NCBI RefSeq assembly: GCF_032854445.1
Contig: NC_088301.1
Span: forward strand, 39,541,187 to 39,605,186
Origin: Liolophura sinensis
Taxonomy: Eukaryota; Mollusca; Polyplacophora; Chitonida; Chitonidae
Direction of reading: 5' to 3'
DNA: 64,000 bases
Shown: positions 10,341 through 51,802 of the stretch, one piece after another
Layout: the number at the start of each line of letters is the position of its first letter
Position numbering within the stretch: the first letter of the stretch is position 1
Translations under genes and position numbers: made by a program
Notes under the pieces: generated by a model
Databases searched by the model: none
What the model saw: only the letters and a program-made list of their open reading frames with translations
What the model was told of the DNA's origin: nothing

Positions 10341-10448
10341 TAACGTTATGGGAATCGGCAGTGTAACATCCAGCCAACCACATGACTCCATCATAACAAG
10401 TCAAATGTTCCACCTCACCTTGTACATCAAGACATATCGTATTTTCGA

Positions 10449-11717: not shown

Positions 11718-11917
11718 NNNNNNNNNNNNNNNNNNNNNNNNNNNNNNNNNNNNNNNNNNNNNNNNNNNNNNNNNNNNNNNNNNNNNNNNNNNNNNNNNNN
11801 NNNNNNNNNNNNNNNNNNNNNNNNNNNNNNNNNNNNNNNNNNNNNNNNNNNNNNNNNNNNNNNNNNNNNNNNNNNNNNNNNNNNNNNNNNNNNNNNNNNN
11901 NNNNNNNNNNNNNNNNN
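11718..11917. other. Assembly gap (exactly 200 N)
   Basis: Two hundred consecutive N characters, a conventional placeholder size, so the true length is unknown. It falls between the retroelement remnant and the DNase I-like exons and may hide that gene's missing exons. Confidence 0.99.
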
Positions 11918-25317: not shown

Positions 25318-28300
25318 TTAAGAAGGGATGTGCCATTTCTTCAATTCTTTTACTCCGTTCTTGATCCAGTCTTCTCTCGAAATGCAGGTCTGCTGGAATA
25401 AATCCTGGGCAGCAAGTGTACATCCACCGATGAAGGCTGAGTGGTACCGCTGAGGAGAGGCATGAACCTGTTAAAAGATGATGAAACAGGCAATGAAAAA
25501 TTCAATCACTGATAACTTGTAATTAACTGATTTGTTAAACCTTCAAAAGCGATTTTGTCTTGTTACTATAATCAGTCAAAAAAAATACATAAATAAACTT
25601 ACATCACATTACTGTATTAGCAGTATTCTTGTTAATAAGATTACACTTTCTGGATACAGCACAGATTCTGGAGTTGGAAACTAGCCTAGACAGCTCCCCC
25701 TCACCATCAGGCACCAAACTACCAGGAATACATTTCAACTGTCAGGACCAATTGACCAACAGGCTTCACACAAAAATGGAATGTGGCTGACCAGTGGACT
25801 TTAGTGAACATGCAATACCCCTCTGATGATCAGAAATGACACAGTGTGATCAAGAGCGGTGACACATAGATCAGTGAAAGCGTATCTTATTGACGTTTAC
25901 CTGAATGGTAAGCCCAGGAGGAACAAGTTTGGTTATTTCCCGCTCCAGGCGCTCCGCGAAACCCGGTAACAATGTAACTCCACCAGAGAGGAAGATGGAA
26001 CGACACATTTCCCTACGGTTGTCCATTGGGCACTCTATGATAGCCTTGTGTACCAGTTTGTGAAGACTCGGAAAGTCCGTCCCCCATATGTTTGTGTCGA
26101 AAAAGCCTTCAGCACTTCTGAAGCAGCCCTCATCATGGGTTACCTCCCTTTAAAAGCAAATAAATACATTTGAGAATATGATTGAAGACATATCTGACTG
26201 TTCTCCACACTACAATAAAGAATTCTTCACTTTTACCATGGTGATTAGTTTTACGCGTTGATGACACCTAACTACCCAGAGTAAGCCATTGACCTTTGAC
26301 AAGTTACTGGGGAACATTCCCACTTGTAACATGTGTCACACCGGAAGGCGGAAAGGTTTTATGTAAGATGACAAAAAGAATCATGTCGAATAGGTTTCAT
26401 TGCATAAACCCCAAAAATGACCCATGCAGGGAAATCCTGAAAATTTGCAAGAAAAAGTTTAAAAGTAGGTCTGATGTTCATTCAAATGTACTGAAACATG
26501 TTCGTTTGTCCGCTCTGTATGCAAATTTCATTGCTTGCTTGGTGTTAGATGCTTATTTCAATATTTAGAATGTCAGGAATGAAACTCTAAGGTACACTTA
26601 CGAATATGTTCCTTCGGGCAAACCAAAGTTCTTCAGAGAAACTGTTTTAGAAAAGCTTCCTGGGTTCTCTTGAAACTGCTTCATTTCTTCACTGAAGACA
26701 TGGGGGATATAACATGTCTGGGTAGGAAATGAAATGAAATAGGAAAACTTCAGATGCGCATATATTTATTCAACTGGTGAGGTCTTTATACATCACTGTT
26801 ATACATGGAAATCTTTAACATTAACTTAATTAATAACAAGAAAGAGCCTGAGAATTTAGGCCTATATGTACATGGTCTTTGGAGGAGAAATCTATTACGA
26901 ACATTTCTTCAATCTGAAATACCAAAAAAAAAAGAGATGGAAAAACAACTCTGCTGACACTCACCTTTTCCATGACATGTCGGATTATAAGTCTCTCTAC
27001 TTCACTGAAGAAATGGTAGTGTAGTCTTGTTAGTGACTGCTTGAGTGAGTCTGCCACCTTTTCTCCTCCAAATGGATGTCTGGTGACACCACCTTCTACA
27101 ATGTACCCTGCAAACGAAGAAAAGTAAATTATACTGGTCTCTAAAAAGCCAATTAAATTTAATAAAAGATAACTGAGTCAACTCTTCATTCATATTCAAT
27201 AATCCTCTTTTTACTAATTTAATTATATTTTTATTTTGGGGGTGGGGGGGGGGATTTCAAACCTTTCCACTATAACTCAAATACTCTTTAATAAATACAC
27301 AACAAAAACCATTAGTTTTTAATACAAGTTTTAAAAAGTATCATTTTTTTCAGAAGTGCAGGAATTCATTTGTCACCATGCCAAGTTCTTAATGCAAAAA
27401 TTCATGACATTTAAAGCGGGGAGCCTCTTCCAAGCATTTCACACTGACATAAAGGTCAAAGCTATCAGCTATAAACTGGGGCATGACATCATCCCTGTAA
27501 ACTGGTTGTAGGCATATGCAGTTTATACATGGCAATAAAGTTCTAAGCATTTCTTCATGCAAAAAGTAAATGTAATTTCCACATTGTGTAACATAAAAAC
27601 TTTACATTATATAGCTAGATATAAATTTCCAGTTCTGCTTATTCACAATAGGATAGCACAACCTGTTGTGTGATGTAAGATCTAAATTAAGTTGTTTCCT
27701 TTTTGCAAGTATGCCTAAAAAGTATCAGCAGGTATGAATTTCTCCATCTAGTTCAATGCTGTATATCAGTATATCACAGCCAATTCGAGGCGAACAGACT
27801 ACACACAATTTGCTCACATTATCATCACTGAAGACTTATAGTATAATATCAAGCAGTACTACATGTACCTACCATCAGAGATAGGAAGTATGTCAATTCT
27901 CTCTCCTACATCCACAATTATCCCGGAGGTGGCCTTGTAAGAATACATGGCCAGGAGAGCCTGAGGGGCGATACACACACCCTGAACACCACAACGCCGG
28001 GTCAAGACATCCATAATCTCTGTTTTCAGTTTGTCTGCTAACATTTGTGGAGTGCTCAACAATACCTAAGAAAGGGGAATCAGGGTGTTACCTTCTGAAT
28101 GTTACTTCTGGTACAGATTTTTGAAAACAGGAATACCTATTTTCAGTACAACCAAAAGATAACAAAATATCTTATATTATACATGAATTACAGAGCACAA
28201 GGAAATCTTAATGATAAAAGGTAGATAGCATAAATGTATTAATTTAATTCATATTTGATTTTGCATTTCTCCACAACTGTTTTTACTTATACGATGTCAG

Positions 28301-31300
28301 TCAGTGTTTTAGGTTGAGGGCACTGAAGTGGCAAGGGTAAACCCCTTATTTCTGATGTGTTACTGAAGAACTTTTTCCCGTGTTACTTACAGATATGCAT
28401 ATTTTATTGGTGGTATTTTACTGGTGGTCTTTAACAAACTATACAGTGCACAAAAGGCCACACATATGATGTCTATTACTTATTGTCAACAATGCCGCAG
28501 AAACAGTGAGTGTCAGAATCCACAAATGCCAAATCGACAGCTGGGATTGAACCCACACTTAGCTCATGAGGTTGAAAGGTTACTACACCTTGACAATTCT
28601 GCCAAGACCAGATCACAACAGCATAGCAATTCTTGCACTTACCCAGTAGCACTTGCTGTCTACTTTCAAGTCAGAGAATATCTTATCAAACACATATGGC
28701 AGTAGACTCATGTCGATGTTAAACTGCAAGTGAAACAGATACAGAATCCTATTATTTTATGCTCAGTCTATTTCGCCATGGTCTGTTTGGAGTGTTACAG
28801 CTCTAAATAGTAAAAAGAAAAGCAGCTAGAGCAAAAGGAGAAATTTTGTTACATGCATTAAAATCATGTGTCAGGTGTAACTATATAAAGCAAGAAGAAC
28901 AGAGCAGGTATCATAGTAATCTGAATGGACAACTGAAAACCTCAGTCTAAGCCTGTACATGTACATCCATAGAGTCCACGAGTATTCTTAGAAAAAAGAT
29001 TGTATGTTCATGAGGAGTTCCCGCAACCAGAGAAGTATTCTGACAAACTTTTGAGATGAATATTTTTGTATTTCATACCTTTTTTAATTCATTTGAGATG
29101 CATGTAGAAGGTGCATAAAGAAAAACAAATGCTTTGATAAATGTCAAGTTGATCTTTTATATAGTATCTTTTCACCTTACAGATTGATAGTTAAGTCATC
29201 AATCATGATTTGAAATCAAAAACTTTCAACATGTTTTATTTGAAATATAAGAAAAAAAATTTACACTTGCTCTGACTTTCTAGCGTTAAACAATGGCTTG
29301 CAGATACACTCCACTTATCCAAAATTTATCCAGTACAAATAAAGAAAGCACTCCAAATGTACATCGTAACTTTACACAGCCTGCTGCAACCACTGCTTTT
29401 ATCCATGCTTCACCAGTATTATGTCACATCAACATTATGTTTTGATCAAGGTTCTTTTGGAACTTCGTTTAATATCTGAATAGGAATTTTGCAATTTTAC
29501 ATCTTTCACAACTACAATACCACAAACCAAACCCAATTAACATCATAAACACATGTGACAAAAAAAAGTAAAATGTTAGTAGAAAACTGTCAGCAAGAAC
29601 ATAAATAAATCTGCAAAACACTGAAATAAGACAAGGGTTGGTGAAACACAACAGGAAAAATGTCTAAGCAAGCTTGTGGTGACAGGTGGAACAGTCAATG
29701 GAATTAAGAAAAAAAAAAGGGAGCAACTTTACAGGATGAGGGTAAAAATGAATGGCAATTAATGCAAGCAGTGAAGTGACTTGCTCGGTAGAATTTTGGT
29801 AAAATTCATATGTGCTGGCACATGATCAAACCACAGTTTTGACAATATTACCATAATTGTTCAATCTTACTATAGAATTATGCGGGAATACATTTACTGA
29901 ATCTGATTTGTCAGATTTTTAAATGAAACTACTTGTATATGTATCCTAGTTTTGCTGGCCTTCTTTATGGCTTCAGAAAAGTACACCATGGTGATGTATG
30001 TGTAGTAAAGCTCTTAACTTGAAACAGACACAGAAAGAGGTTAAAATACTGCATAGTTCGGACACAAGTATTTATATCCCACATTAAGTGAAAAATTCAT
30101 TGCACAGAGCATGGTAGTTTTTATAACCTGATATGAACAGTCACAAAATGAAATTGCAATCAAAATTTCATCCTTAAATTCAGACAAAAACTAGAAGCAG
30201 CCATTGGACAGAAACCAGCTTGAACAGCCAATCAGAAATAAAGAAATCATTACACTACAAAACTTACGGATGAATCCTAGCAGTTTTCATTTAATATTTA
30301 CATTTAATCCAAAGTTCCAGAAAATGAATATGTACACAAAATTTTATCTACTACTGTAATAACTACTGTGTAACAGACATACCAATTTACTATCCCCGGC
30401 CATATTTGAAAACCATGTGATAAAAAAAAAAATCACTGAGTGCACATTTATTCTCAATGCAAGCACACATAAAACACATGAGACGTAAAGAGTGATCACA
30501 AAAGCAAAATGGCACAATGGACAAATGAAAAGCAAAATGGTTGACAAATGAAAAAAGGTGGACACAGAGCTGATGCTGCCAACTTACAGGAAGACTTTTT
30601 CCCTGCATAAGAAAGAAAGCAGAATGAACCTCTTGAATATGAAAGATTTGTTATTGCTATGCATATAGTAAAGATATAGTTCACATGCATATAGTGTTTT
30701 AAATTTACATGTTAACATGTCATGGCGAAAGACATTTCATATCATTTCATCAATTTTGTTACATACACATTCAAAAAGCTTTATAGTCAGCATTTTTGGA
30801 GGAAAAACAATGAAATGAAAGAGGATTATATTAAGATTTTGGATAAAAACTGCAAAATATGTATTGAGGAAGTTGAGAAAAAAGTACTCAATGTCATAGA
30901 TCTTGCATTAAAATACTGGCTCAATAACATGTATTTAAGCACAATGCAATGACAATACCAATATATGATATATGAATAATATAGACACTGAACTGCATTT
31001 CAAAACCATCAAGCAGAAGTATCTAATACAAGTTCTTTAGAGCAAAGCAACATCTTGAAAGATATTAGAAGAATAGTGAACAAAGTCAGAAAGTGAGATA
31101 CATGTACATATCTGTCACCAACCTGCTCTGACAAAATTGCAAAACTTGCTAATATTCCACTTAGCTCATGTACAGGATAGTTTCAGGCATACTTTATACA
31201 AAAGTTTTAGTCAATATTTTATCACAATACTTAAGAATAAGCCATTTTATAGTATAAATTTTAACCTTTACATCTCTTAAAGTTGGGAAATGCTGAACTA

Positions 31301-32426
31301 GAGCTTGGGCATGGAAGTGTGCATTTAGGAATGAAGAGGCATCCAGACGGAGCCCAGTGAAAACTGTTACACCCTAAACCAGATTTCTGGGAGCATTCCC
31401 ATACACCGTTTTCTTGTTCGCAGCTTTCTTCAGTTGCAGAAAACAACCTCAAAAACGCCAGGTGTTAAAACCAACCGTAGTAGATAAAAGTGTGTGTAAT
31501 GAAATGTCTTGCTTACAGAATTCAGGTCGGTTAGCGCTATCGCAGCGTAATGACCTAGGAGTCTCTCACCAATGTGGTCGCCGTGAGCTCAAGTCCAGCT
31601 AATGCTGGCTTCCCCTCCGGTTGTACGTGGGAAGGTCAGGCAGCAACCTGCAGATGGTCGTCGGTTTCCCCAGGCTCTGCCCGGTTTCCTCCTACCATAA
31701 TGCTGGACGCCGTCGTATAAGTGAAATATTCTAGAGTACTGCGTAAAACAATAATCAAATAAATAAATACAGAATTCATTATTGACCAATTGGAACTTAT
31801 CTTCACTGACCACTTGGAATAATGAGTCATCATGATTGTGAAATCGTCTGATCAGTCTAGATTTGAAATAAACTGGTACATGTACCTTGTCAACTTTGAC
31901 AGATGGCCTTATTGGGTAGTGCAGAGTAGACTGGTTCCTTATGTCTGGGCGATAAGCATCAAATCCAACCACACACTCCCCGCTGGATGTTTTCTTAGCT
32001 ACAACTGTTGGGAAGAACACCTGTGGAAGGCTCGCTGAAAATGAGAGTTTGTTTTCAAGAATTACTGCAACATCATGGTATACGACATGGTGATGTAGTA
32101 ATTTTCTCAATGCATCACTTGCTACTTTACGTTACTGACAGTGATAAACACACATACATGTACAACCTATCAAAGGTACCTATTACATGTTGTTGGACAA
32201 TGTCATAAACAAGTATTGTCAAAGACAAACCTTTCCTTGCATGTTGACAATTAAATAATGCCTTTCTACTTGCTCCAATGCTTATGATGCAGGATTGCAA
32301 GATCATTCTGAAGTTATTCCATTACCCCCAAAGCATCATTAACTGGAGACAAAACAAATACATACCTTCTTTTCCTAGAATGCCAGCTCTAACTGATGCA
32401 CTTCCAATATCAATGATTACTACTTT
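25318..32426 (-). CDS. Actin-like domain exons of the PH-actin gene
   Basis: Eight exons together give about 379 residues, the normal actin length. Phosphate loop 1 is VVIIDIGSASVRAG (actin has a DNGSG-type loop). Next come FFPTVVAKKTSSGECVVGFD, HYPIRPSVKVDK, then VLLSTPQMLADKLKTEIMDV. The nucleotide-pocket Gln is kept in CIAPQALLAMYSYKATSG. Phosphate loop 2 is IIVDVGERIDILP, where actin has DSGDGVTH; the second Gly and the Thr/His are absent. Then come EKTCYIPHVFSEEM (actin EKLCYVALDFEQEM), FLSGGVTLLPGFAERLEREI (actin SGGTTMYPG) and YHSAFIGGCTLAAQDLFQQT (actin IGGSILASL). The order and spacing are those of a whole actin fold. It is divergent from conventional actin and from every Arp I can recall, and ATP hydrolysis is doubtful. 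Confidence 0.88.
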
Positions 32427-35400
32427 CTGGAAAGCATGATGTACATACAACATAAGTTAGACATAAGTTGCTCAATGAGACTAATTAATACATCTATTAA
32501 TATTTTAGCTAGGAATAGAAATATTTATGCATTATGTATGAATGTATGGATGGTTCCTTCGGTATACTGTGTTCAAGACAAAACATTTCTATGTCTAAAC
32601 AGATTTTAACTCTGTCACAAAATCATAAACTGACTGTAAAAGGCTGCCGTTCATAACAAAATTGCAGTTCATAACAAGTAACAGATAAGTATTATAGTAT
32701 AAAGCTTTAAGTTAAACATTTAACCAGAGATTCAGATTCTGGACTCGGATAATCAACGTAGCATTAAAAACGGTTAAAATACCTTAGATGGGTGAGGTTG
32801 ACTATTAAGAACTGGACGAACGTGGACAGCTTTCACATTATCAGTTGTCTGTGACTCCAGTGACACTCTCCAATTTTCAAAGTCATTAGGTGTAGGACAC
32901 CTCACCATTAAGTAGTGACCACGCTGTAAATGCAAGAATTCATACAACAATGCCATAATGTTTCACACTGTATGTGAAAAACGCACACACATACATGTAT
33001 ATAAAGGAATTTCAAATTTTCATGATTACGTGCAACTGGAATACAGGCAACATGTAATTCACAGGAACTTCAAATATAATTACTGTTTGGTACTGTTGAA
33101 TAAATTCTTACAAAGTATATATACAAATGCTACACATACTAAATTCATCAGGCTTTCTAAAAGGGTGCATAGCTCCACATGGATTAACTTCACAGAAAAC
33201 TGCTTCTTTCGTTGCAATAGTCAAAATAATTTTCATTTCAGGGCTGGATCGACCAAAAGACTGTAAAAAGAAAACAAGACACCTGATTTAAAAAGATTAA
33301 ATTGTTCCATAGCCTGATGAAACTTACCCCATCATCAATCCCCAAAATTCGGGAATCTAAAACTTCTATGGATCCTCCCATGAGTTGAAAACTGTGACAA
33401 GGCTTTTCATAGTTGTTGTGCTGGAAAACAACAAAGAACAGAATTGATCCAATGAGCGACTTGGCCTTATATACAAGACTTATCCTGCAGTGTCTTGGAT
33501 GGGCAAGATTTAATTTGTACTCACTAAAATTTGATGTTAAGCTAGAAAAGATAATGAAACAGAAAAATGGACTGACATAAATTTTGCATTTCAAAATGCT
33601 CATTTATACCAATCAATATCAGTAATGTGATTGAGTGGTTTTGCGTGTGGTTTGAAGTATAAATTATTTCGTAGGGCACCACTATGGCAGTCACTGGTGT
33701 GCATACTACAACTATCTCATCATGAAACACTCTAATTTCTATGCATTCTATATTTCCCTTAACACGTGAAAGCAGACTATTAGTTGCGAGTAATTCTTTT
33801 TACCTCATAATAATGTAGCCAGCCATCAGCAGCTTTGAAATAGCGCCTCTTCCAGGTTTTCAGCAAAGTTGATTTTCGCTTCCCCATTGGTAGCTTTTCC
33901 ATGACACCTTCCATGCTTATGAAGCGATGAGACAAATCCTCTGTGGTCTACCAAGTGATATTAAAAACATACAAATGTATACTCTTCACATTATTATTTT
34001 ATACTTTCTATTTTATCCCTTCATTCATGACTTTTTAAAATTGTGTAATTCGTCTAAATTGAGAACTTAGAGCACAAATTGTGTAGATACGTCTGTATGT
34101 ACCTCAGATAGCTTTCCATCCCCCATTAACATGTTAAAAAGAACCACATCCACATACTGTGCCTCCATTAAACATTTATTGTAAACTTACCTCATCTAAA
34201 AGTCTTACTGCATACAATTCCTTTAAGAGTGGAGTCTGAAATACAAAAAGGAAGAGCAAGTTTACAATACTGCTTGTCATGTTTACACATGAAGAAAGTG
34301 CAAAATGATAAACTCTAGTTTTCTGCTTTTTTTATGCACATCTAATTGGACACCAACTTTAATATGTCCATATGACCCCAAAACATTTTATCTTATCTAT
34401 TTGAAGTGGTGAAACGAAGTTGTGAAATTTAAGATTAATCTCCTAAATCCCTTGTCACTGATTATATTATTTGGTTTGCGATACTTTGATCATCGTTTGC
34501 CAATAAAACGTTTCTTCTTTGAATCTTACAGTTGGATTCACGTTTTCACGTCCCTAAATGTTTTTAAATGTAAATATCAGTGACAGCAAAACTACTGCAT
34601 GTAAAATTCCAGACGTACATATAATCAATTTTTTTTATATAAACACATGTAGATGAGGCAAGCAGCTTTCCAAATCAGACAAAATCCAGGGTGATTTCTT
34701 TCTTGAACAGCCTTAGCAGAGTTTAAGAGCTGGAGCAATGATATCAATTTGAAAGGTGTCTAAAAAAGAGAAGGGTACAAGTACTCACCGGGTCCCATGA
34801 CGTTAAATGGATGCGAGACTGAACCACATCTTGGTCCTCTTCAATGGGATCTATCTTCACACCTGCATTACTTTCCGCACCTGTGTAAGAAGGAGCATAA
34901 CACTCAGTCATAAGACATGGTGTGCTGTTTCCAAAACTACTTATCAGAGACCCTATTTGGCTCTGTACTTCTGTAACTGTCTGATCCATGCTCAAGTCTT
35001 GAGTTGATACTGCACTCTTTGGTTTTGACCTCCGCAGTTTTTTGAAGCTTGCTCTTAGAACCTTTCCCAAGGATCCACTGCTCCCTTTCTCAAGTGGTTT
35101 GCTGGTTGTAACTACCTCACCCTGTAAGGCACTGGTTTCTACCTTTACTTTTTTCGCTTTATTTTTGTCAGATGCAAAAAATAGATTGTCCTTAACAAAT
35201 CTTGTGTTCAGCTTAAGTTTTCTGGTAGTGGTACGTTCAGACAGAGAATGTGGGCCAGCATTGTCTCCTGGTTGATCAGTATTCAATATGTCCTCTGATA
35301 CAGTGGGAGAAATTGACTGACCATCACTGCTTTCAGACAAAGATGTCCGAGTAACACCAGTCCCAGCACTACGATGCCTTCGACGTCCAAGTATCTTTCC

Positions 35401-38400
35401 TTCAGGACGGGTCGGTGGGCCAGCAGATTTCTTCTGAATATCTTCCTGAATGAATCTGTTGTGAAAGAGAAAGCTTTGCCTGTGATCTCGGTGGAGTTTT
35501 GGAGACACCAAACCACTCTCCAATTCTTGGTTATCATGTGGTGATGAAAATATTGTTGGCTCCTGAATACTACGATTCACGTCACTTTTTGCAACATTAT
35601 CCATTTCACATGGTACTTCTCCGGTATGTGCGTGATGATCCACACTTTGCGTGGCAGCCACTGATTTGCGATCTGAGACTGGTTTAATCAGACGGATTAT
35701 TGGTCCAGTGTCCTCCTTAATACACTGTGGATGAGTAATTCCTTCTGCTCCTGATTCAGAATGAGCGAATTTCCTGTCAGTAGACATAACTGTGTTTTGT
35801 GGATCAGATTCTAGCTGGGGCTTTGACATTTCTGCATTGGATTCGATCTGTGTTTGTCTTCTTGTTAGGAGCCCAATCGTACGCTTAAACATAGCACATA
35901 TTGTGCTGTCTGGTTCAACATCGCATTCTTCCTTTTTGGATGTAGAATTTGTGTCATTAGCAGAAGCACGATCTGCTACAAAGCTTGGTTCTGGAATTTC
36001 ATCTTCTGGGGAAACAGCCTCTGGTGTTAAGTAAGCTTGATCCTCCAATGATGTGTTCTCATATGCTTCGTGATGTGCTTTGAAGTCAGTCTCACTTTCA
36101 TCATCAGCTACGCTACCAGCATCATCAAAAATGCTCTCTTCTGATTCAGACTTACTTTTTTTGCTCAGCGGTAAGAAAACTGCACCTGGTTCTCCTCCAC
36201 ACAAGTCAGGCCCAGGGTCTGACAACCCCATATCTAGAACTAAAAGATTTGTCATCAAAATTGCCCCTTTTGCTTTTCGTCCGGAACGTTTTCCAGAACC
36301 AGACTTTTTCAACTGCTGGGGTGAGCTGGGCTCTGATTGAGTCTGACTTGTGCTTATAGATTCTCTCATAGCAGCAGCCTTTTCAATGTGCTTTCTCTTA
36401 CGTCGCTTTTTGCTTTCACTACGATTGCGTTTCTTTTTACCACTTGCACCTGCGGCTGTGCTAGAGGACGATCCTCTCGCCCCTTCCTTCAGCTCTGATG
36501 CATCTGTAACATCACTCTCACTCTGGAGCCTGTCTCTGTCACCTTCTGAGGACCCCCCCTCTGTTTCTGTTGAATACATGCGTCCTTTGTCAGTCAGGCA
36601 CGGCTCCGATGATGTTGTCAGAAAAACTTCATTTGTCTCAGATGGCTCTTCCTTAGATATTATATCCAATTTATTATCAGGTGACAAAACAACCTGACCA
36701 GACAAAAGCTTGCAAAAATCTCTTGATGAGACTTCTTTTCCAATATCTGTATCCACCTTGCTAGTATCAGATAAGTTTGGATTAGGTTTTGTCTCTTTAT
36801 GACTGAACATGTCTTTATCAGAGCTGTTAGGTAAGGATGATTTCTGAAGCTCAGGCATTTCATCAGCACTTTGGACATCGAATGTTGCTTCAGATGGCGG
36901 TATTACAGGGTAAATTGATGTTGAAGACTCAAAATTATCCCCCTCATTCAACATAGTGGTTTCTGGCGAGTCTTTGGTTTTTAATTTCACAATGTGTAAG
37001 GTGTTTAATGATGATGGCTTTACCAATTCTCCGGTGACACTCAAAGGGGCCATTAATAATCGTTCAGAGTTGTTTGCCGAGTTGTTTCTGTCAAGTCCTC
37101 CTGTTAACGAATAGACCACATCAGATTCATCTTCCACAGTATTCGACAATTGCGCATGAGTGTCAACTCCAGACTGTGATTCCTTCCCAGATAGATAAAC
37201 CTGATCAGTCATTTCATCTGTCATTGTTAGATCCTGTTCGTTTTCTTCATCAGAACCAAACCCCAAATTATCATATCCTTCAACAGCTCTGTCCAAAACA
37301 GTCTCACCTTCAAGTAACTCTTCTTGGAAAATGTCGTCTTCATCAGGTGAACCTAATTCTACTAGAGATGAACTTTGTACCTCATTTTCTGTCCACCTGA
37401 TGCACTGTGCTTGACACTGGTCATACATGTACTGCTTTCAGGTGCTACAGTCGCTGGCTCAAATCAAAAAGCAGGTGGTCAATATTGTTCATAGTAGACA
37501 CTGATGGCTGTGGCATGGTTGGTGTGACTAGTGTTGCCACTTCATCATCAAAGGCAATTAGGTTGCAATCAGGCTCTTGGACAGCTTTTGGAGTTGGGTT
37601 GAGGCAGGAGTATTGTCATAGTCATCTACACTCACTTCAACAAGAAGTTCTGCAGCCGGAAGTCCTTTCTTTGATTACCAAGCAAACTGTGCTGAGGAAC
37701 AGCTTCACCCTCATCTAACTCACTACCAAAGTTTCTGCAGCAGAATTATACTCTGACAAAGAATCTTCCTCAACAGAAAGAACACAAATTGTTGACGGAT
37801 CTGCCTGAGCTTCAACAGCAGAATCATAGTCTGTTGATTCGCTGTCTAACTCCGAGCTGTAGGCCAATTGTCTTCACTCATCTCAGCAGACTTACTCTGC
37901 AATTCATGAAGGTCAAGCTTAAATGCTGGAGGGCGATACAGTGGAGCACCACCCATTTCAGACACTTCTCCATCATCTGTACTCTTTGTGGACTGCCTCC
38001 TATTGTTACAAATTTCTTTCATTGCAGAACTTTCCTGGAAGGCATCTAAAGCAGCCTTATGGCCAACTTTAATGCTTTGCTTTAACTGAGCCACCCTATC
38101 TAATATATCATTAGTTTTGGGGCTGTATGCTTCGTTGTCTCCATTCACAGGTTCCATCCCAGAGTCTGAGGTTCCAGGGTTAGACGCAATTTGAACTGGG
38201 GCTTGTGGTCGTTTAAACTTGTCCAACACTTGACGAATCACCCCTGGACCAATTGGAATTGTGTCTGGGTCTTCAGGCTCTATCTCCACACCTCTCATCT
38301 CCCGAGATAAGTCCACAAAACGTTTCATGTCATCAGATTTCTTTTCTTTTGGACCTACATATATAAATTCCCAACCTCAACTGGTTTGCCTGTGGACACT

Positions 38401-41400
38401 GGTTCTGTGTTGTTCTGCTTACTCTCTGAAATATTTGGTGATCTTTTTTCCTTGGCCGCGACACTCTGTGTGCCTTTGGAGTCATTATTTAACTTCGCCA
38501 CAGCCTTTTGTACCACATCTGATTTTTGTTTTTGAAGAGGACGCCTTTGTCCGTGAATTCCACGCAGATTCTGATGAGCTAAATGTAGATGATCTTTTGT
38601 CATGGCTATTCTGAATCGTCTGGGATTTTGAGTCTTTGGTACTGTTGGAAGAAGAAAGGCTAGCTTTTCTTGGGGAATTTGGTCTGGGATCTGTAGAACC
38701 CATCATAGTTCTCCTGTTTCCCAACACTTTTTGACCTTCTAAAAGCAGGCTTAGATGGTGACTTTTCATCTCTAGAAACTGAAATGTCCCTCAAATCAGG
38801 TTTCGACCTGGATCGTGCTTTATCAACCATTTTGTTTCGGCTGCTAACTGTGCCTTTGTCCTCAACCCTTAAGCCATCTGTAGCCCGGATACTGTTTCGC
38901 CTTACCAGTGGGGTACTGCTGCGTTGTTCAGATATGCTTTTACGTCTTGGTCGTTCTGGACTATTTCTGCGGCTGCGTGATTTGCTTGGTGACTCTGCTA
39001 CACTCTTCCTTCTAGAACCAGGGCTGAACTGGCCTGATTTGTCACTTGAACTACTTCTACTGGACTTGTCACTTGGACCGCTACGCCCTAACCTGGAATG
39101 AGGGCTTGCACGATTGGGTCTTGGTGTCTTTGATCTGGGACTAGATGTACCAGACTTGGAGCCTTTGTCTCCATCTTTAGAAGCGCCAAAATCACCATGC
39201 CTCTGAGATATGCTGACAAGCTCTGCAGAGTCCAGGGATCGGCCATCTTCACTTACAACATCACTACCATCAGCTTGGTCTCCAGAGATGGATGCTGTTC
39301 TACCAAACAACATCTTTTGGACAGTTTTTTCTCTACTTGGCTCTACATTTTTACCTCTACTACCTTTCTTGATTGGTTTCTCTTCTGGCTTATTTTGTTG
39401 TCCCATATTTTCAAACATAGCGATCTGTGGTAGTTTTTTACTGGTTTTTTTAACTGGGTTTTTGGTTGGCTTGGGTTTTGTTTCTGGCATTGCTTTAGCA
39501 GCAGTGCTTTTGGTTGGCCTATCATAGCCAGCAGCTCTTGGTGCTTTAGGTTCTGCAGATTCCTTTGAATTTGAAGATACATTTTTCTGTGAAGCTTTGG
39601 TGCGAGGTAAAGTGTGAGATATGGGGGTAGATGATTGTTCAGTGTGTTCTTCTCTCTTGAAAGTATATGGTTCTTCTTCAGTTGACCCACGTAAATTCTG
39701 AAGCCTTTGGGAAATTCTGTTCGCCTCAATGGGGCGAAATAATGATGTTTCCGAATGGTTTACGTCTTGCTTAAGAGGTACATATCGGGGTGGAAAGATA
39801 TCCCTTGCAGAATTTTCATTAGGCTCCTCATATCTATTGCTAAACCTAGACACTCCAACACTTTGTGGCAATGAATTTGTGCCAATCACTGTGCTGTCCT
39901 GATAAGAACTTTCTACAGGACTTACAGGACTCACAAATTGAGACGAGAAGTTCTCAATGGCAGGGGACTGAATTGAATCTGTAGGAGAAGCAATCTGCCC
40001 ATTATCAAGAGCTTTGCTAGTGTCAGCCTTATCATTCTCCAAGAATTTTTTACTGATCTGATATTTGTCTTTTGTTGAGACTGACAACCGAGCTTCAGAT
40101 GCTCGCTTGCTTTCTTCCAGGAATTTGCGTGCTCGACTAATTCTATCAAGTGCACCTGCAGTCTGGCTATCCATGGTTCCACCAAGTGCTTCAAACTGAC
40201 TTTCTATTTCTTGTCTTTTGTTCGAAAGTGGAAAATCTGGTACATCTGATTCCTCAACATGAGAACCAACAGGCGATATTGGAAAAGATGGGGATGCAGA
40301 ATGTGTCACAGATGTTGGGAAAGTAGGTGAAGGTGAAAATGTAGGGGAGATCGGGAGAGTAGGCGAGACTAATGGAGAGCGTTGGCGAGAAAAGAGTGAT
40401 TCCCGCTCAACTTGAGCAGCACCATTAACATGTCCATTGGTACTCAGACTAGATACAAAACTGGGCCTTGAAAAGAACCTCTCTTGTGGCACAGCACCTG
40501 GAGTCTCCTCCATAACCCCTCCAAAACTGGAATATGATGTAGCCACTGCAGGCTGCCTCTTCAGGAGGCTTTCCCTGCGACTTGAGAAACTACTTGTCTG
40601 AGGCTGTTGATCCTCTACAGGCACACTTGCATATCCTCTTTCCTTCAGCATCTCACGCACTCTCAGCAAATCACTGCTTGCTTGCCTAGATTCAAATGGT
40701 GGAGCCACAGGAGTGTATTTCTTTCCCAAAGTGGAGGTGGAAGAAACTGTTGAGGACTCAGTGTTTCTGAAAATGCCTGATGATGCCCCAAATCCTGCTG
40801 GTCTGTTCTCTGCAAATGGGTTCCAAGGCCCCATAGAGGCACGCTCTTTACTCCGTTCAAGAATACTGCCTAGTGCACCAGCACCAGCACCACCACCTAA
40901 TGACATACGGCCAGGAAAGGATGGAGCAGCTTGTTGTTGAGGGCGACTTCTGGTAACCATTGGGCCTTGACGCATCCTTTGCAACCTTGCTTGTAACAGG
41001 GATGACCCTGTGCCACCTGACTCTTTCATATCTGCAATAGGTAAACATAAATGTTAAAACTGGTAACTGTGGTGTAGTTTATTTTCTTTGCACTTGGAAT
41101 CACAAATCACATATTGAGGATTATTAAGGCATATTACATCATAGCATAAAAGTGCATAGTTTTTTTCTTTACATGTAAATAAGTTAAATCAAATGTTGAA
41201 ATTGCTATACATGTACTTTAAATAAAAGATTAAGAAGTTGAGTAATTCTGAAATGGCACCTTATTATATAACCATAAACATGTCTTTAAATATTTCAATA
41301 AATATTTGTTAAGGTGAACTCCAATGTTATTTATGTATCTACTTTATACAGCAAATTACACATTTTGAACATAAATTGAAATAAAGCATACAGAAAACTG

Positions 41401-44400
41401 GTATGCTGGTATTACCTATCAGGTAGTCCTATATAGGTTAACATATTGCATTAACACCAATAGTTTATCGTATTATAGCTAGCTATATGAGGAATGAACG
41501 AACAAAATGACATTCAGTGTATGTACTTGGTTGCTACTTTGTGTCCAAACTATTGAAGTCTGACTTTCATTTGTTTAAAATTCTAATTTAGTTCCAAAAG
41601 TTAAAATTTCACAGACCTCTGCAAGTTGGAAATGTCAGACAACTATGCGTATACCAAACAAAACACAAAGCAAAATATTGTGAAAAGTGTGTTGGAATGG
41701 AACCCGCACATATCCATAGTAACACTCATACCTTCACCTGTGAAAAAATATGCAATAAGAACCTTCGAGGTTAAACTCAACAGGTTTTCAGACTGGTTAA
41801 CATAACAGTTATAGATGGCATGGACAGTTTTGGCAGGTACATGTATTCTCCTTTGTTTTCATATATTTGTTTTTTATCCCTGGACGATAAACTGACAATG
41901 GCTTTTTAAAAGAATTGATTAAAGTCATCACCAGGCAGACAAGTTTTGTTCTAGACACATTAAGGTGTGCCTAGAGTTTAAATACTTCCATACATACACA
42001 CAGGTAAGTAGGTCATGCTTTCGACCTACATACATGTATGTATGAAAAAGGCTTAGTTCTGGTTCACTCAAACCACCTTGATTTAGACCTAGCACACCTA
42101 CATTGCACCTAAGTATGTCTTACAAGCCCTATACACCCATGCACAAGCAACTAAGAGAGTACAAAGACTTTTGTGATAAATTATAAATAATAATGGCACT
42201 ACTGATGCGTTGGCACTCAAATGGGAGTGAAATGGAATTAGGATACATAATAAAGTTAAGCATGTTGTATCCTTACTAAACAGGATTGAAACATGGTAGA
42301 ATACTTCAGAATGAGGGAAAAGGTTAACAGCCACTTCTTTAGGCAGCGTGTCTGTCCTATATTGTATGAATTCAGTCACTGAATTTCTATTAGGTTTCAT
42401 AAATTCTGAAATTGAAGCCACGCAGCTTGTAGTAAAGACAAACTCTACAATTTCTCTGTGAATTTGTGAAATCAGGCAACCATTTTAAGAATATTGGCAG
42501 TGTTTTTCACTATCAAATATTAACAGGATTCTCCTTATCTTTAATTTGTGTCTTTAATTTTTTTATCAATACCAAAGCCATTTAATTAATTATCATCATA
42601 ACCTCATTGTTCATCAAGTTTTACATTAATTTTTATGCAATTTTCTACTGAAAATGTAGAGGAAACTGCTTTGGGATAAGTAGTGTCATTCAATGATGCT
42701 TAATATTTTCTTACGTAGGAAAAAATAATTGTATCAATAATATAAGCTGCATTTTGCAATCTTTGGAAATTAAATATTCATTAAGTTCAGCTCGTGCCAT
42801 CTTCCTCTACCTGAGAATGTCTGTCAGCACCCTGCGGATCATTTTGGGTACCTCGGGCTCTGCCCAGTTTCCTCCCACCATAATGCTGGTCGCCCTCATA
42901 TAAGCAACATACTCGAGTACAGAGTAAAACACCAATCTAATAAATAAATAAATTACCTATTCAAATACTTTGTATAGCTGTCAGCAGACAAGTAGTTCCA
43001 TAAAGTGATCAAAATAAAGCATGCAATGGTCCAGAGAGGTATTTAATGGCATGAAGAAAATTTGAACATTCCACTGCCTTTGCACAACTGGAGAGCAACT
43101 TAACTTTAGTAAAAAATTTTTAACAGCAAGCATATGTGTAGCCTGCACACAATACATACTTCCAGACGAAATTATCTAAACATCAGTGCAGAAAAATCTT
43201 GCCTACATATAGTGAATCTGCACTTATTACCTCTATACATCTAACTGATCTGTTTACACATACAAGAAAAAGGAAACATGTTTTCATGAGCCTATCGTAA
43301 TAAGAAAGGACACCAGTCATGTGATAAATGAATCTCCAAGGTTTACCCATTTATGGATGTAATATAGATATAGTAATGCTAATAACTGCCCTAAAGAAAT
43401 TCTAACACATTCTATGTGGAGTTTTTGCTGTAGATTTGAGACTGTCATATAGATATGTTTTTGACAGGAGTTCTTCTAAACAGCCAGGACGGTCACTCAG
43501 AGATTTGTTATGGATATATGCTACTTAGTCTGCCTGCATACACATAATTCCATACATGTAGGCAGTTGTTGATCTGGACATGCAGATAACTACATGTATG
43601 TATTTACATGGCACTGCGTTCACATCGTTTAAGTGCTCTGAAGTTTTGAAACAAGACAGTTCAAAAACTTTAAAGTTTTAAAAATAAAAAGATTATAACG
43701 TACCACAGTCACAGACTTATGTGAACAGAAAGGGTGCATGAAGAACAGTTTTGTGTTTCAAATGGGGGTGGGTGGGTTTGGGGGTACAGTGGAGGTGAGA
43801 ATGGATCTAACAAGGTTGATTAAGCTATACATGTTCTGACAAATCATTCCTGCCAGCCCTTATGTCCTAAGGTTCAAGACAATGCTGGAGGATATAAAGG
43901 TCAAAGCAATCAAAAGGTAACAGGTTGGCTATGTCTGCTGGCCCGTTTATATAATAGCATTGTATGACTGGAAAATGGCTGTAAACATAATCTGCATGCA
44001 AAAAAGGGTAGAAAACATCCCTATGAAAAACACAGTATAAGCAGTAAGAGGTTGGAAACTTCAGCAGTGTATTTAAATGAGACCTTCCCCAACACTATAT
44101 CTTAGACCACTGTTGCACTACATATGTACAATGCTCCAAAACCAGTTGTAGGAATGTGAAAACATGCTAAAACACACACACAAAAAAAAAGAGATCTTTA
44201 ATGTGAAAAAAGCATCCTACATGTATCTAGCATGAAATCCAGAAACAATGGACATCCCGAATAAAGTGCATTTTTTGTGTAACATGTGCAAACTCATCTC
44301 ACATACCTGCCAAAGCACAGCAAGTGCAACATAATGTACATAATGACTTGCAATTACGAGATATGAAAGTATTAATGTACATGTAGTCTTCAATCCTAAG

Positions 44401-45871
44401 ACCAGTTTTCAAAAAAAAAAATAATAACTAAATAAATAAAAAAAACAGTTGTGTGAATGTATTCCTTTTAATTACACATATGTATGAAGCCTTAACCCAA
44501 GGTTAAGTAACCTAAACAAAGACACACTTGTAAAAGCATATGTACAGCAAAGCTGAAGTTTTGAGAAGAGAACACTGAGCAATTTTTTTTAACTAAAGCA
44601 CATCATTTTATGGATATTGTACTGTCCAGACACTAATAAAATTTATCTAATGATTTAAAGCATGTGGCCACAATCTATTTGATACATAAATACTACTACT
44701 TCAAGACCTGATTTTTCCGACTTTGAATATAAAAGAAAAATTTACAAGCTCTCTTGAACACATTAGTGTTTGAGCTTTTGCATAAGTTTTTGCATGCACT
44801 TAGCTGCAAACTTTAGGAATATGTGCAGCACTCCTCTATACTATACCTAAAACCCAATTGATATGTAAAATCAGAATTTCACAGATGTATACTTTGTCAT
44901 TTAGAATAGAATGTGAGCACTAACTGAAAAAAAATAAAGCAGGCAGTATGTTTCACACAAAATTCAAAAAATGTCACGGCTGTTAGCAAAACAAGTATAA
45001 AACTAGTTGATGGATTTTCTTTTAATAGCAACGCGAGAGCATGACGACCCATGTGCCTTTTCAACCCTGAATCTTTCTGCAGGTAAACTGCCCTGTACTT
45101 CAGTTGCATGCTTAAACCACATTGAGGCAGTCACCTGCTATGAAATGTCCCAAGGTCAGATAAGTGTATAAATACCTACAACATGTACATTCTCTAATGA
45201 GAAAGTTGATTTCTTCATAATAGTGATGTTGTAATATGTTATGTTTGTATTGCTTATTTCATGTTTGGGAGTACATGTGGGTAGATCAATTAACTACATG
45301 ATATGTTCATGATATTACACATGTGACTTACAGTGTATACTTTGCCAGCATCAAGTACATAGTCCCTGGGGGCATAGTCTATCAACTACTGACCACATGT
45401 ATAGCTAAGTGGTAATCAACAGCACGTACTCCTAATAAGAATCTGGATATCCCCATGCATCCCTTATCAGAACAAAATCTTTTCAAACATTATTCATTGC
45501 CATATTTATTCTAACCCTTCCATGATAAAATAACAAAACTTTTGAACACTGAGACTGAGCTTTTGTTATCTAAAATCAAGTAGCCCATGGTTTCATGATG
45601 GTGCAGAAAATGACAGATTAAGGACTCTAGACAAGAGTCATCTTCAATGAAAAATATTTCTCATTTCATTTTTCAGCCTGGTACACATGGATAATATATA
45701 TACATATGGCAACAAAATCCTTATCAGATCTGATTTCTTGTCACTGGTTTAGTAAGGTTAGATATTTGATATTAAAAAGATTGGTGTTAAATGTGAACAA
45801 AAACACAACATAAATAACTTATAATTTTGTGTGAAAGATTAAAAGAACCACATTCACTCACCTTCAGACAT
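25318..45871 (-). CDS. Giant protein: disordered N-terminal region, PH domain, actin-like domain
   Basis: Reconstructed exons (minus strand): 45871-45862 (MSE plus one base), 41031-34789, 34235-34191, 33947-33804, 33420-33328, 32923-32783, 32426-32366, 32034-31886, 28723-28643, 28065-27873, 27107-26965, 26717-26602, 26147-25901, 25467-25318 (stop TAA). All introns are GT-AG and phases agree at every junction. About 2,080 residues of Ser/Pro/charged disordered sequence precede a PH domain and a complete actin-like fold of about 380 residues that ends in HIPS. The start is supported by an in-frame TGA upstream in the first exon. The 6.2 kb exon carries a cluster of single-base frameshifts at 37.4-38.7 kb. 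PH domains bind phosphoinositides or proteins, so a membrane- or cortex-targeted actin-related scaffold is plausible. That role is inference. I know of no named family with this architecture. Confidence 0.82.
31526..31771 (+). mobile_element. Full-length tRNA-headed SINE (plus), in an intron of the PH-actin gene
   Basis: Contains the head GGTCGGTTAGCGCTATCGCA, a B box-like GTGAGCTCAAGTCCAGC, the body TACGTGGGAAGGTCAGGCAG and GGCTCTGCCCGGTTTCCTCC, and the tail GTGAAATATTCTAGAGTACT with AATCAAATAAATAAAT. It is the most complete plus-strand copy. It lies within the 3.2 kb intron between 31886 and 28723. Confidence 0.85.
32783..33947 (-). CDS. PH domain exons of the PH-actin gene
   Basis: Three exons (33947-33804, 33420-33328, 32923-32783), all starting in phase 0. 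The strands read MEKLPMGKRKSTLLKTWKRR, then YFKAADGWLHYYE, then CHSFQLMGGSIEVLDSRILG, then RGHYLMVRCPTPNDFENW followed by RVSLESQTT. This is the full PH layout: the basic beta1-beta2 loop, the RRYF beta2 strand, WLHYYE in beta3, and a C-terminal helix carrying the invariant Trp (ENW). The K/R-rich beta1-beta2 loop (KRKSTLLKTWKRRYF) is where PH domains contact phosphoinositide head groups. About 16 residues after the last helix the chain enters the first actin-like strand. Confidence 0.88.
34789..41031 (-). CDS. 6.2 kb exon: disordered Ser/Pro/charged region of the PH-actin protein, frameshifted
   Basis: It starts at an acceptor (CTATTGCAG) and ends at CCCG followed by GTGAGT. It is open in one frame from 41029 to about 38700 (start DMKESGGTGSSLLQARLQRM) and in another from about 37390 to the donor. 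Between them the reading hops frames about nine times, yet every piece stays of the same character (for example YSSELDSESTDYDSAVEA, then PTPKAVQEPDCNLIAFDDEV). Features are Ser-Pro repeats (SPTLPISPTFSPSPTF), a possible helix (GALDRISRARKFLEESKRAS), RS-type stretches near 39.0-39.1 kb, and a basic cluster KKKRNRSESKKRRKRKH near 36.38-36.44 kb resembling a nuclear localisation signal. No folded domain was recognised. Confidence 0.75.
42785..42955 (+). mobile_element. SINE, 3' part (plus), in the first intron of the PH-actin gene
   Basis: Contains TGTCTGTCAGCACCCTGCGG, CTCGGGCTCTGCCCAGTTTC, CTCCCACCATAATGCTGG, ATACTCGAGTACAGAGTAAA and the tail AATAAATAAATAAAT. Confidence 0.8.
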
Positions 45872-45956
45872 GATTGATACTGGTTGAAATCCACAACTTC
45901 CAGCAGAATCCCCACCTCGAGCCGAGTCAGTGTCTCAGGAGAATTTACTTCGCTCG
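45862..45956 (-). CDS. Start exon of the PH-actin gene, readable in two frames
   Basis: A strong acceptor context (GTTTTTGGCAG) precedes 45956 and a GTGAGT donor follows 45862. In one frame the last ten bases code MSE plus one base and join in phase to the 6.2 kb exon. In another frame the whole exon is open (SEVNSPETLTRLEVGILLEV, then VDFNQYQSCLK). That frame is in phase with the donor of the upstream coiled-coil gene (54632), but it would hit TGA two codons into the 6.2 kb exon. Either this is a 5' UTR/start exon, or one base is missing and the two genes are one. Confidence 0.6.
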
Positions 45957-45971
45957 CTGCCAAAAACACAA

Positions 45972-47700
45972 AACACCACTCCCACGAAAGGTTACAAACG
46001 GCTAAAGTTTAAACCGCGAAAAACTAAATGGCAGGAACCTGTCCCTGTACTTCATGGCGAGTTTAAATGACAGATTGACTTAGGTTAAGCAAATGCCCAG
46101 AACAGGGTAGATTTTTTTTTTTGGTTTTCCTTTTCACAAGAAAAATATGTCCCTTTTGATCGAAAGTCAGTATCTGAGAAATCTCACACAGCGAATAAGA
46201 TCAAACGGGCCTTTGAGTAAAGTTCTTGATTATATGTGACACAAAAGTTTACATTCAACCTAAATATTTCTTGACAAAATATAGGATATTAAGCTGTCTC
46301 TCTTTAGAGATATATTCACAGGTTCACAAAAGTTTCAAAATGAACAGGTGCCCTTCTTGCTGAACCTCAGGTGATAAACTAGCAGAAGGTTTAACTGTCT
46401 AATATACACAAAATCACCTGATGACTGTCACACTTCTTAAATGGTTGGTCTGACAGATGTACATGTAGTCTAGCAACAGCAGATTTTCCACCTGTACACA
46501 AGTATGCATCAAACCTCATATGTGTACACGAGCAACAAAGTTTCAGTTCACTGTCACAGTTTCATAAATGTGACGATCAGAATGTTGTGATCCTTGTAAT
46601 CCTGAAGATCGGAGCATAAACAAGCTGTAATGGGTCCACAGTCTTCTAACAGTTTAAATTTGACACAGCAGTGTGGAGGAAATAACACACATTCCCTACA
46701 GCAAAGGCCCTTCTTCAATGGTACATGGTGAATTCCCTATGTCAATACATTTAGACATGAACATATGCGGCACTTGCTCACTGAACATAGGGGTGACACA
46801 GCCTACCCTGAATATAGTTAACCTGTCCTAATGCATCTGGGACCACTCAAGTGAAACATGTCGAGGCTAGTGCATAACCTCCAGCATGTGACAGTCTGAA
46901 AGACATGTTCCACCTCACAAAATGCATCACAATGTCTAAGCCGGGGTATTAAATCTTCAGTGCTCAGAGACCAGTCCACCAAACTTTACAAACACTTTTT
47001 CCCTCCAAAACTTATGGTGCTTGAAATTTGCCGAGGGTTATTTAGTGTCACCATGTAAAACAAGATACACGCATTAGAAAAATACAAGTTCAGATACACT
47101 GTAGTTCGACAATGTGTACCAAGCAGTTCCACCTGTAACAATGCACTAAATCCTGATGCCAATATCTCTGTTTTCCTTCTTAATCCTGCATGGGGCACAT
47201 CACTTAACTTTACACTGAAGTCCTGTATGAGGTATGTCAATGGTGGGAGTCACGCTAGGAAAGCCTTGTAGCTGTTTTGACAACTTGTGGTCATAAAAAG
47301 AATATAGAACAAGTCCAGGCAGATGGCCACTGGTGCAAAACAGATCTTCTGGTCTACATTGGACTCCAAAAAGTGACCAGCTGGACAATCCGGTTAGACT
47401 TAGGCCACTTCCTCTCCACACTTTTGAGCCTCAGCCTAGCCCGTGCAGCATGGCCGTTGAATTGAATCTACATACGTACCTCACATATACAGGTAGACTT
47501 CTATACAGGCCACCTACAGCCCAGCCTGTGAAATACTGTACAGTATTACAATAGACCCGCCAAACAAGCTTCACTTGTCACTGAGGCCCTCAGGCAAGAT
47601 GAAATTAGCAACAGCATAAAGAGGCTCAGCGCATGGTGAAAAGAAAACTCGCTAACGACTTATGCGGCACAGGCGCGGCAAACGAAAACCTGTTGCACAA
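45972..47700 (-). promoter_or_regulatory. Candidate promoter and 5' UTR region of the PH-actin gene
   Basis: Less AT-rich than its surroundings, with CpGs near 45.97-46.05 and 47.64-47.70 kb. On the minus strand a good donor (GTGAG then GTACGT) ends a possible non-coding first exon near 47483. No TATA box or start site can be assigned by eye, and the frames at 46986-47421 look non-coding. Confidence 0.25.
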
Positions 47701-49344
47701 GAATTTTGCCACACATATGTGTGCCTAATGTTTCGATGTTTTAAAAAATAAATAATTTATCTATTATTAAGCTTTTCTAAATTTATGCAAGACAGTTTTT
47801 AGTCATAAGATTTAAGTTATCAGCTTACTTTGCATGACAATGTTTCACTTTCATTTTTCAATAATAAAACCTTATCAATTAAAATTCAAGCTTGGATAAA
47901 AATGTACATAAAAAGACCTTCTTGGTTTGTTAAATTTCTGAACATTTTAAAATGTGACTAAAACATGTAAACGTATATTAACATTATGTTGAATATATTA
48001 ATTTACCATCATGTAATTTTTTTACCTGTGTAGCTCACACATTTATCACTGGAAAGGAGAAAATCAATTTAAATCTGAAAATGATATCATCAATTCCATT
48101 TCCTTGTTGCTTAATTTTTTAATCAATTTAACAGCACTGAAATGTTCATACACTGTTATAGATTGATCCAAAACTACTTCACAAAATTTTCGAAATCAAA
48201 GGAATTAAAATGTTATATGTTATCTTGCCACATCACAATTAAAAGAATTAATTTACATTTATTACCCTGTTACATTTCAGATTCTCAAACCATAAATATT
48301 TTACATCAATACACCACTCACATAACATAAAAGGGTCATTGTGTATTTACTGTACTCTGACCTACAAGTATAATCTTTCAGTAAACACTGTACCAGCACC
48401 ATTGCAAGCACTGTTAATATGTGGGTGTAACGAAAAAAAAACCAATCCTTAACCAGAGTCAACCCATTTTCATTGCAAAGAGGGGGTTGGGAAGTTTCAA
48501 AGAAAGAGAACATGTAAATACTTTCACTATTTATCAGGGCCATTTTGGCTTTAATTCAAACCCAGACCAATCCTTCATCTCGGCAGTGCAGACAAAAAAA
48601 AATATATTTTATGTGAACACACCTCTAAAAAAGTCATTAATACAAACAAATACCCCACTCCCATGAAGTATGAAAGTACATGATTATGTACATAACAATA
48701 TCTTATCCATAGAACCTGTACTTACACCGTGCCAAAGTTCAATACTGGTGGGCTGTTCATTACATGTTCAAGACACTTTTTCTTTATCTTAGTGTTTATA
48801 TTCCAGTTTTTCAATTTTTTTTTTTAATTTCCCCATACATTTTGATTTTTTTTTTATTCCATTGGAGATAATTTGCACCTTATTCAATATTATTCCACTG
48901 ATAGTTTGGTTTACAAGAGTAGGAACTAGACAGAGCCCAATGGAAATCAACACACTTTACAATATATCTGACAAACCTCTTAACATAAAGAAGCAACACA
49001 ATCCTTTGGTGTTGGGTGTTGGATGTTGTGAATGCTTAACCCCATTGGTCAAAGATGGAAAAGCCATGCCTTGGATACCATAGCCAACAAGAGCCTTTTA
49101 CATGTACTTGATTACATGTTTAATGTATGTTCCTTCAATTTACGCCTATTCCTGCTTTACATTTATGCATCCATTTAACTATTTCAAAAATTTCTACACA
49201 CATACAAAAAAAGGTAAAAAAGCAAAGAAGAAAAATATGGTGTATGTGTCTATAAAAGTTAAATTATAAACTAAGTGAGTGGATGTTACATAAATCTATA
49301 CTTTCTAAAAGCTTAAAGGAAAAGACCTACAAAAATCAAAGTAG

Positions 49345-51346: not shown

Positions 51347-51802
51347 AGTGCCACTACCAGAAGTTGCTATATACCAGAAGTTGCTATGGGATCTTTTGAC
51401 AACAGTGCCACTCCCAGAAGTTGCTATATACCAGAAGTTGCTATGGGGTCTTTTGACAACGGTGCCACTCCCAGAAGTTGCTATATACCAGAAGTTGCTA
51501 TATGCCAGAAGCTGCTATGGGGTCTTTTGACAATGGTGCCACTTCCAGAAGTTGCTATACACCAGAAGTTGCTATGGGGTCTTTTGACAATGGTGCCACT
51601 TCCAGAAGTTACTATATAACAGAAGTTGCTATGGGGTCTTTTGACAACTGTGCCACTACCAGAAGTTGCTATAAACCAGAAGTTGCTATGGAGTCTTTTG
51701 ACAATGGTGCCACTACCAGAAGTTGCTATATACCAGAAGTTGCTATGGGGTCTTTTGACACTGTGCCACTACCAGAAGTTGCTATAGAGTCTTTTGACTA
51801 CA
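51347..51802 (+). repeat. 57-bp minisatellite, about 8 units
   Basis: The unit is GTGCCACTACCAGAAGTTGC, then TATATACCAGAAGTTGCTAT, then GGGGTCTTTTGACAATG. Each unit contains CCAGAAGTTGCTAT twice, an older 20-bp sub-repeat. One unit has an extra sub-repeat (near 51500) and the last unit is shortened. Because 57 is a multiple of three, plus-strand frames stay open across most of the array (about 100 codons), but no start context, splice sites or known domain make it a gene. Confidence 0.92.

Follow-up and report, generated by a model that had tools for sequence, protein, structure and literature searches.

A census of human proteins with an actin domain distributes 32 of them among five classes, none of which is named for a PH domain: conventional actins, centractins, actin-related proteins (Arps), actin-like proteins and POTE ankyrins (PMC10175787). 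Extended actin folds have nevertheless been published: ARP8/SUSA2 of plants, where the fold follows an F-box and is predicted by the authors to bind the target (PMC7562919, PMC11096116); filactin of Dictyostelium, with a long N-terminal extension (PMC2441452); POTEE and POTEF of primates, whose actin domain is drawn last in a multidomain protein (PMC8292509); and the divergent, non-canonical Arp53D of Drosophila, in which an N-terminal extension directs localisation (PMC8291977). Here we describe a locus of the chiton Liolophura sinensis, lying on the minus strand of a 64,000-nucleotide window (NC_088301.1, positions 39,541,187-39,605,186; coordinates below are those of the window), whose exons code for four consecutive parts: a disordered region of great length, then a PH domain, a short linker, and an actin fold that is complete but divergent. 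A first-pass annotation of this DNA had stated that actins and Arps are normally stand-alone folds, which the published extensions qualify, and that the combination may be undescribed and perhaps restricted to certain invertebrates, a suggestion with which a molluscan host agrees. Within the PDB, Pfam and the open-licence literature, the scope of this statement, no named family with the PH-then-actin order was found; uncharacterised orthologues may sit in databases. Scans of bacterial and archaeal contigs with the 426-residue actin part, and of viral contigs with the 561-residue PH-actin part, gave no relative, but they were made with exact short peptides and say little.

The extension of an actin fold is not unique in itself, filactin, POTE-actin, Arp53D and ARP8 being precedents. 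In ARP8/SUSA2, as in the chiton protein, the actin fold is C-terminal, is preceded by an N-terminal domain and shares about 30% identity with actin; the plant fold still worked in the assay used after mutation of predicted nucleotide-site residues (PMC7562919). ARP8/SUSA2 is single copy in Arabidopsis, and no second copy of the chiton gene was found in the 609 Mb assembly (609,464,459 bases in 632 contigs). The plant protein differs in carrying an F-box instead of a PH domain, in having no giant tail (the actin domain is 70% of ARP8), in being restricted to plants according to the paper, and in the proposed recognition of ubiquitination targets by its actin fold. An F-box actin of this type was rejected, as Pfam scanning of the PH-actin piece and of three pieces of exon 2, at a threshold of E 0.1, detected no F-box. 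The actin domain of filactin is highly homologous to conventional actin, and the extension of Arp53D is 40 residues long; neither paper mentions a PH domain (PMC2441452, PMC8291977). POTEE and POTEF arose by recent retrotransposition of beta-actin and contain cysteine-rich, ankyrin and helical domains (PMC8292509), whereas the chiton actin part is very divergent and interrupted by seven introns. A POTE-actin was rejected on these introns and on the lack of any ankyrin match in the pieces scanned by Pfam.

The gene model comprises 15 coding exons on one contig, running from 45871 to 25318 (Table 1), and all 14 introns have GT-AG borders. Exons 3-7 encode the PH domain and the roughly 22 residues that link it to the actin fold, which exons 8-15 encode in full, in phase down to the TAA stop. 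From 32923 to the stop the frame is consistent over nine exons, the first of them shared between the PH and actin parts. The earlier annotation had proposed fourteen exons with matching borders and phases; the borders hold with one exon more, but the phases do not match throughout, since exon 33260-33140 ends one base off the frame of the exon that follows. Its count of about 379 residues with actin landmarks agrees with ours (379), and its figure of about 2,080 disordered residues is close to the approximately 2,104 that precede the PH domain, although these do not form one open frame. The full PH domain that it described is likely, as detailed below.

Membership of the actin superfamily is supported by a match to PF00022 at 3e-53 (181.3 bits against a cut-off of 27) that covers positions 4-403 of the 410 in the profile. 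Aligned to conventional actin (chain 4efh_A), the chiton sequence is identical at 109 of 352 positions (31.0%), whereas in the same alignment identity to one chiton actin is 95.7% and 97.5% for two others. It keeps the catalytic-site residues Asp11, Gln137 and Asp154, together with Gly13, Ser14, Gly156, Gly182, Arg206, Arg210, Glu214 and Gly302. Compared with 4efh_A, Arg replaces both Lys18 and Gly158, Met replaces Lys213 and Tyr replaces Lys336; His161 is missing, and seven of the 12 adenine- or ribose-pocket positions checked differ. Ten of 14 D-loop positions are changed or absent, residues 48-50 being missing, as are residues 57-60 of subdomain 2; six residues are inserted near actin position 229, and the barbed-face cleft is changed at Gly146, Ile345, Leu349, Thr351 and Met355. 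The choice of these positions, and the roles attributed to them, rest on background actin biochemistry. The changes suggest that nucleotide turnover is altered or lost and that the fit into a filament would be poor, while the fold remains.

The PH domain reaches the cut-off of PF00169 exactly when scanned alone (25.1 bits for a cut-off of 25.1) and scores 20.9 bits within a longer piece, the match spanning positions 2-57 of 105, the first half of the profile. Its best match in the PDB is GRP1/cytohesin-3 (8.7e-5), with a weak extra stretch of 2.1 bits between the second half and the C-terminal helix of GRP1. Shared with GRP1, whose PH domain binds phosphoinositides, is a basic segment between the first two strands, KTWKRR(Y/W)F. 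The two domains differ in that the alignment is good in the first half only and that the chiton sequence, as aligned, lacks the Arg305 of GRP1; the other domains of the two proteins are unrelated. From these matches a complete PH domain is likely. As Arg305 is not kept, lipid binding by the chiton domain is uncertain, the functions of the KTWKRR segment and of Arg305 in lipid binding being presumed here.

The tail that precedes the PH domain is 15% serine and 60% disorder-promoting residues, basic around residues 501-800 and acidic around 1001-1300. It contains 38 Ser/Thr-Pro and 8 RRxS-type sites, and the PH domain has one further RRxS, the ninth. None of three pieces of exon 2 matched Pfam, and neither of the two pieces compared with the PDB gave a match. 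Simple patterns for WH2-like (L-K/R-K/R-T/V/A) and RVxF motifs did not match in the tail. VxxLxxxFE, a published short F-actin helix motif (PMC13364712), was absent from it in strict form and in both of the relaxed forms tried that retain the acidic residue at the end; a looser form lacking this residue matched once, no more than in shuffled sequences. Elsewhere in the window, an adjacent disordered frame on the minus strand (54570-55772) has an exact match to the motif, VSALRQTFE. This frame was treated, by assumption, as one gene with a coiled-coil-like piece on the same strand (57566-57838), which gave eight weak Pfam matches, all below cut-off, including ZapB and Occludin_ELL.

We tentatively propose, at a confidence somewhat short of even, that the locus encodes one protein, a phosphoinositide-targeted, non-polymerising pseudo-actin scaffold with a phosphorylation-controlled tail; the scaffold mechanism in itself is put forward with marginally more reserve. 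A single polypeptide of about 2,660 residues would join the tail, the PH domain and the actin fold. The PH domain, through its basic segment, would carry the protein to the membrane, where the actin fold, building filaments inefficiently, would offer a pseudo-actin docking surface to actin-binding partners or filament ends. The serine-rich tail, with the sites counted above, would be a binding region controlled by phosphorylation. The best working analogy would be plant ARP8/SUSA2, to whose family the chiton protein does not belong. Every functional step is predicted from sequence and by analogy. The earlier suggestion of an actin-related module tethered to a membrane or scaffold is, as a prediction, the simplest reading of the locus and is uncontradicted here. 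Several observations weigh against the scaffold: the PH match at threshold and of half length, the loss of GRP1 Arg305, the absence of VxxLxxxFE from the tail, and the retention of several catalytic-site residues that a pure scaffold would not need. To these are added an in-frame ATG in the intron before the actin exons and ten interruptions of the reading frame in the assembly, both considered below.

The retained residues could instead indicate a membrane-tethered actin that polymerises or nucleates, the PH domain holding an actin-fold seed from which filaments grow. Such an activity would be consistent with the complete fold, with the conserved Asp11, Gln137 and Asp154, and with the top matches being conventional actins rather than Arps (among the best 60 of 157 matches). 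However, the D-loop, subdomain 2 and barbed-face cleft are changed, six residues are inserted, and the tail has no WH2-like or VxxLxxxFE match by simple patterns. We therefore regard a polymerising actin as unlikely.

As judged from the intron between them, the PH and actin parts very probably share one transcript. This intron, of 356 bases on one contig, has GT-AG borders and phase 0 on both sides, contains neither AATAAA nor ATTAAA, and follows a PH exon that itself encodes the linker. The in-frame ATG lies inside it, with nine codons separating it from the start of the first actin exon, so that a separate actin transcript is possible, and readthrough past the PH exon soon meets a stop. Both features would fit two adjacent genes misread together, one for a large PH protein and the other for a separate divergent actin-related protein. 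Against the matching phases, the missing polyadenylation-type signals and the position of the linker, this is quite improbable.

A PF00022 search of the genome gave 56 matches, counted by exon, with E values of 0.001 or below, the best seven being long, intact loci of conventional type. Ten further loci were aligned as exon pieces to a two-sequence profile (4efh_A and the chiton PH-linked actin), an alignment that leans towards the latter and that only three of the seven conventional loci survived; the locus pieces are partial, covering 121 to 360 of the 388 columns when all rows are included. The ten were labelled by signatures that we take to be those of Arp1, 2, 3, 4, 6, 8 and 10 and of three actin-like genes on contig C1. 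The Arp10 label is also backed by 177.7 bits to the human chain, and no Arp5 was recognised among the ten. The PH-linked actin is 21-30% identical to the Arp and actin-like rows. In a tree of the 12 rows of more than 150 columns, without Arp10, it is sister to Arp4 (64.7/69, branch 1.25); it is sister to Arp10 in a tree of all rows but Arp8 (95.1/81, branch 0.88) and in one of 12 rows with human Arp10 (65.3/78, branch 1.05). Its placement among Arps is thus weak and changes between the three trees, and its branch is among the longest, although Arp10 or Arp6 branches are longer in the two trees that contain Arp10. We conclude from these comparisons that the PH-linked actin is an orphan, long-branched lineage and not a recent chiton copy.

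The two Arp10 groupings raise the possibility that the protein descends from the Arp10 line, has diverged, and acts together with Arp1 filaments of the dynactin type; an altered phosphate loop 2 is common to it and Arp10. Beyond this loop and a possible weak affinity in the trees, Arp10/Arp11 is different, being a dynactin subunit with a human chain of 417 residues to which identity is 22% (BLASTP). Moreover, the genome carries its own Arp10 locus, scores to Arp10 are 51-53 bits against 164 bits for conventional actin, and Arp4 becomes the sister when Arp10 is left out, with long branches throughout. A diverged Arp10 relative of this kind is improbable, slightly more so than the two-gene reading.

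Other origins within the actins were discarded. A conventional actin does not agree with 31.0% identity, a missing His161, Lys18 replaced by Arg and the loss of D-loop residues 48-50; a retroposed actin does not agree with seven introns within the actin part; and a recent chiton duplicate does not agree with 31% identity to actin, compared with 53-79% for the three genes on C1. Those three are multi-exon genes clustered at about 31.82-31.89 Mb. Identity with a conventional chiton actin is 57% for the first, 53% for the second and 79% for the third, and the first and second form a tight divergent pair (100/100).

The frame breaks could indicate a pseudogene. Nine of them, found by three-frame reading, fall within 1.26 kb of exon 2, and the tenth is at the intron 33139-32924, after exon 33260-33140; no second copy with which to compare them was found in the assembly. 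However, 1,255 of the 7,937 coding bases contain nine of the ten, a clustering with a binomial tail of 5e-7 for a region picked after seeing the data; the remaining 5 kb or so of exon 2 has none, and the actin exons and core residues are intact. The break density in the patch, 0.72%, is close to the read error of 0.74% estimated for this assembly, which has a HiFi coverage of just 14x and a mean read of 8.3 kb (PMC11068029, where the species appears as Liolophura japonica; the name was corrected to Liolophura sinensis in PMC12441733). Because the breaks cluster at about the read error rate and coverage is low, a local consensus error is favoured: the patch suggests, but does not prove, a locally poor assembly consensus, and a pseudogene is the least probable of the readings considered. 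The conserved-looking segment 38370-37850 gave no PDB match and, in the genome, matched its own locus only. A scaffolding artefact was rejected, there being no N run inside the gene: the only one in the window, exactly 200 N at 11718-11917, leaves the gene wholly to one side. That run resembles a scaffold join.

Table 1. Coding exons and related features of the PH-actin gene.
Feature	Position	Strand	Basis or remark
Exon 1 (putative), Met-Ser-Glu-	45862..45871	-	Donor GTGAGT, in phase with exon 2; least secure exon of the model
Exon 2, giant, disorder-like tail, ~2,090 residues	34789..41031	-	Open frames 41053-38660 and 37437-34744; composition
Patch of nine frame breaks inside exon 2	37435..38690	-	Three-frame reading
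Exon 3, leads into PH domain	34191..34235	-	GT-AG, phase 0
Exon 4, first PH strands, KTWKRRYF motif	33804..33947	-	PF00169; GRP1 alignment
Exon 5, PH domain	33328..33420	-	GT-AG, in phase
Exon 6, PH domain; canonical donor leaves frame one base off	33140..33260	-	
Exon 7, PH C-terminal helix and ~22-residue linker	32783..32923	-	GT-AG; weak GRP1 helix stretch
Exon 8, actin start, phosphate loop 1 DIGSASVRAG	32366..32426	-	Match to actin profile; acceptor in phase 0
Exon 9, actin subdomain 2, shortened D-loop	31886..32034	-	
Possible microexon (speculative), 15 bases, in phase	30588..30602	-	Flanks TGCAG and GTAAGT
Exon 10, actin fold	28643..28723	-	
Exon 11, Gln137 and Asp154 equivalents, altered phosphate loop 2	27873..28065	-	
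Exon 12, actin fold	26965..27107	-	
Exon 13, actin fold, with six residues inserted compared with actin	26602..26717	-	
Exon 14, actin fold, SGG-LPG segment	25901..26147	-	
Exon 15, IGG strand, C-terminus, TAA stop	25318..25467	-	

The placement of exon 1 is supported by upstream stops, one of them in frame 22 codons before it, and by a rise in the CpG observed/expected ratio (0.74 at 45800-46099 and 0.64 at 46000-46299, compared with 0.00-0.42 in nine windows spanning 44000 to 45899). It is weakened by a second rise (0.64-1.02) at 47400-47899, 1.5 kb upstream of the first, and by an ATG in exon 2 itself. The candidate microexon lies in a 3.2 kb intron and, if used, would add five residues near actin positions 78-79.

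Elsewhere in the window, the plus strand at 1-1308 gave no Pfam or PDB match; it resembles the C-terminal part of a PDZRN3/4-type protein. Mobile-element remains lie on the plus strand at 9791-11480, with a weak GIY-YIG match (E 0.0066, below cut-off), and by their motifs are presumably Penelope-like. A 57-base minisatellite, its copies matching at 91-96%, occupies 51347-51786.

Low-coverage assemblies could hide genes of this kind, which frame breaks may cause automatic annotation to split or lose. It is conceivable, though unlikely, that the gene represents an undescribed ancient animal class in which a phosphoinositide-sensing PH domain sits on a non-polymerising actin fold, lipid signals placing an actin mimic before nucleators, cappers or motors, and phosphorylation of the tail, some 2,100 residues long, helping to set its partners. 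On this reading the gene may be as old as animals and not specific to chitons, since the branch of the PH-linked actin in the three trees, 0.88-1.25 substitutions per site, approximates those of Arp3 and Arp10 in length. Few folds in biology are as constrained as that of actin, and a natural PH-actin fusion, if true, would be a ready-made experiment in turning an actin polymer into a membrane-addressed docking site, as well as an animal parallel to plant ARP8. This uncommon combination of domains may turn the shape of actin into a docking platform at the membrane.

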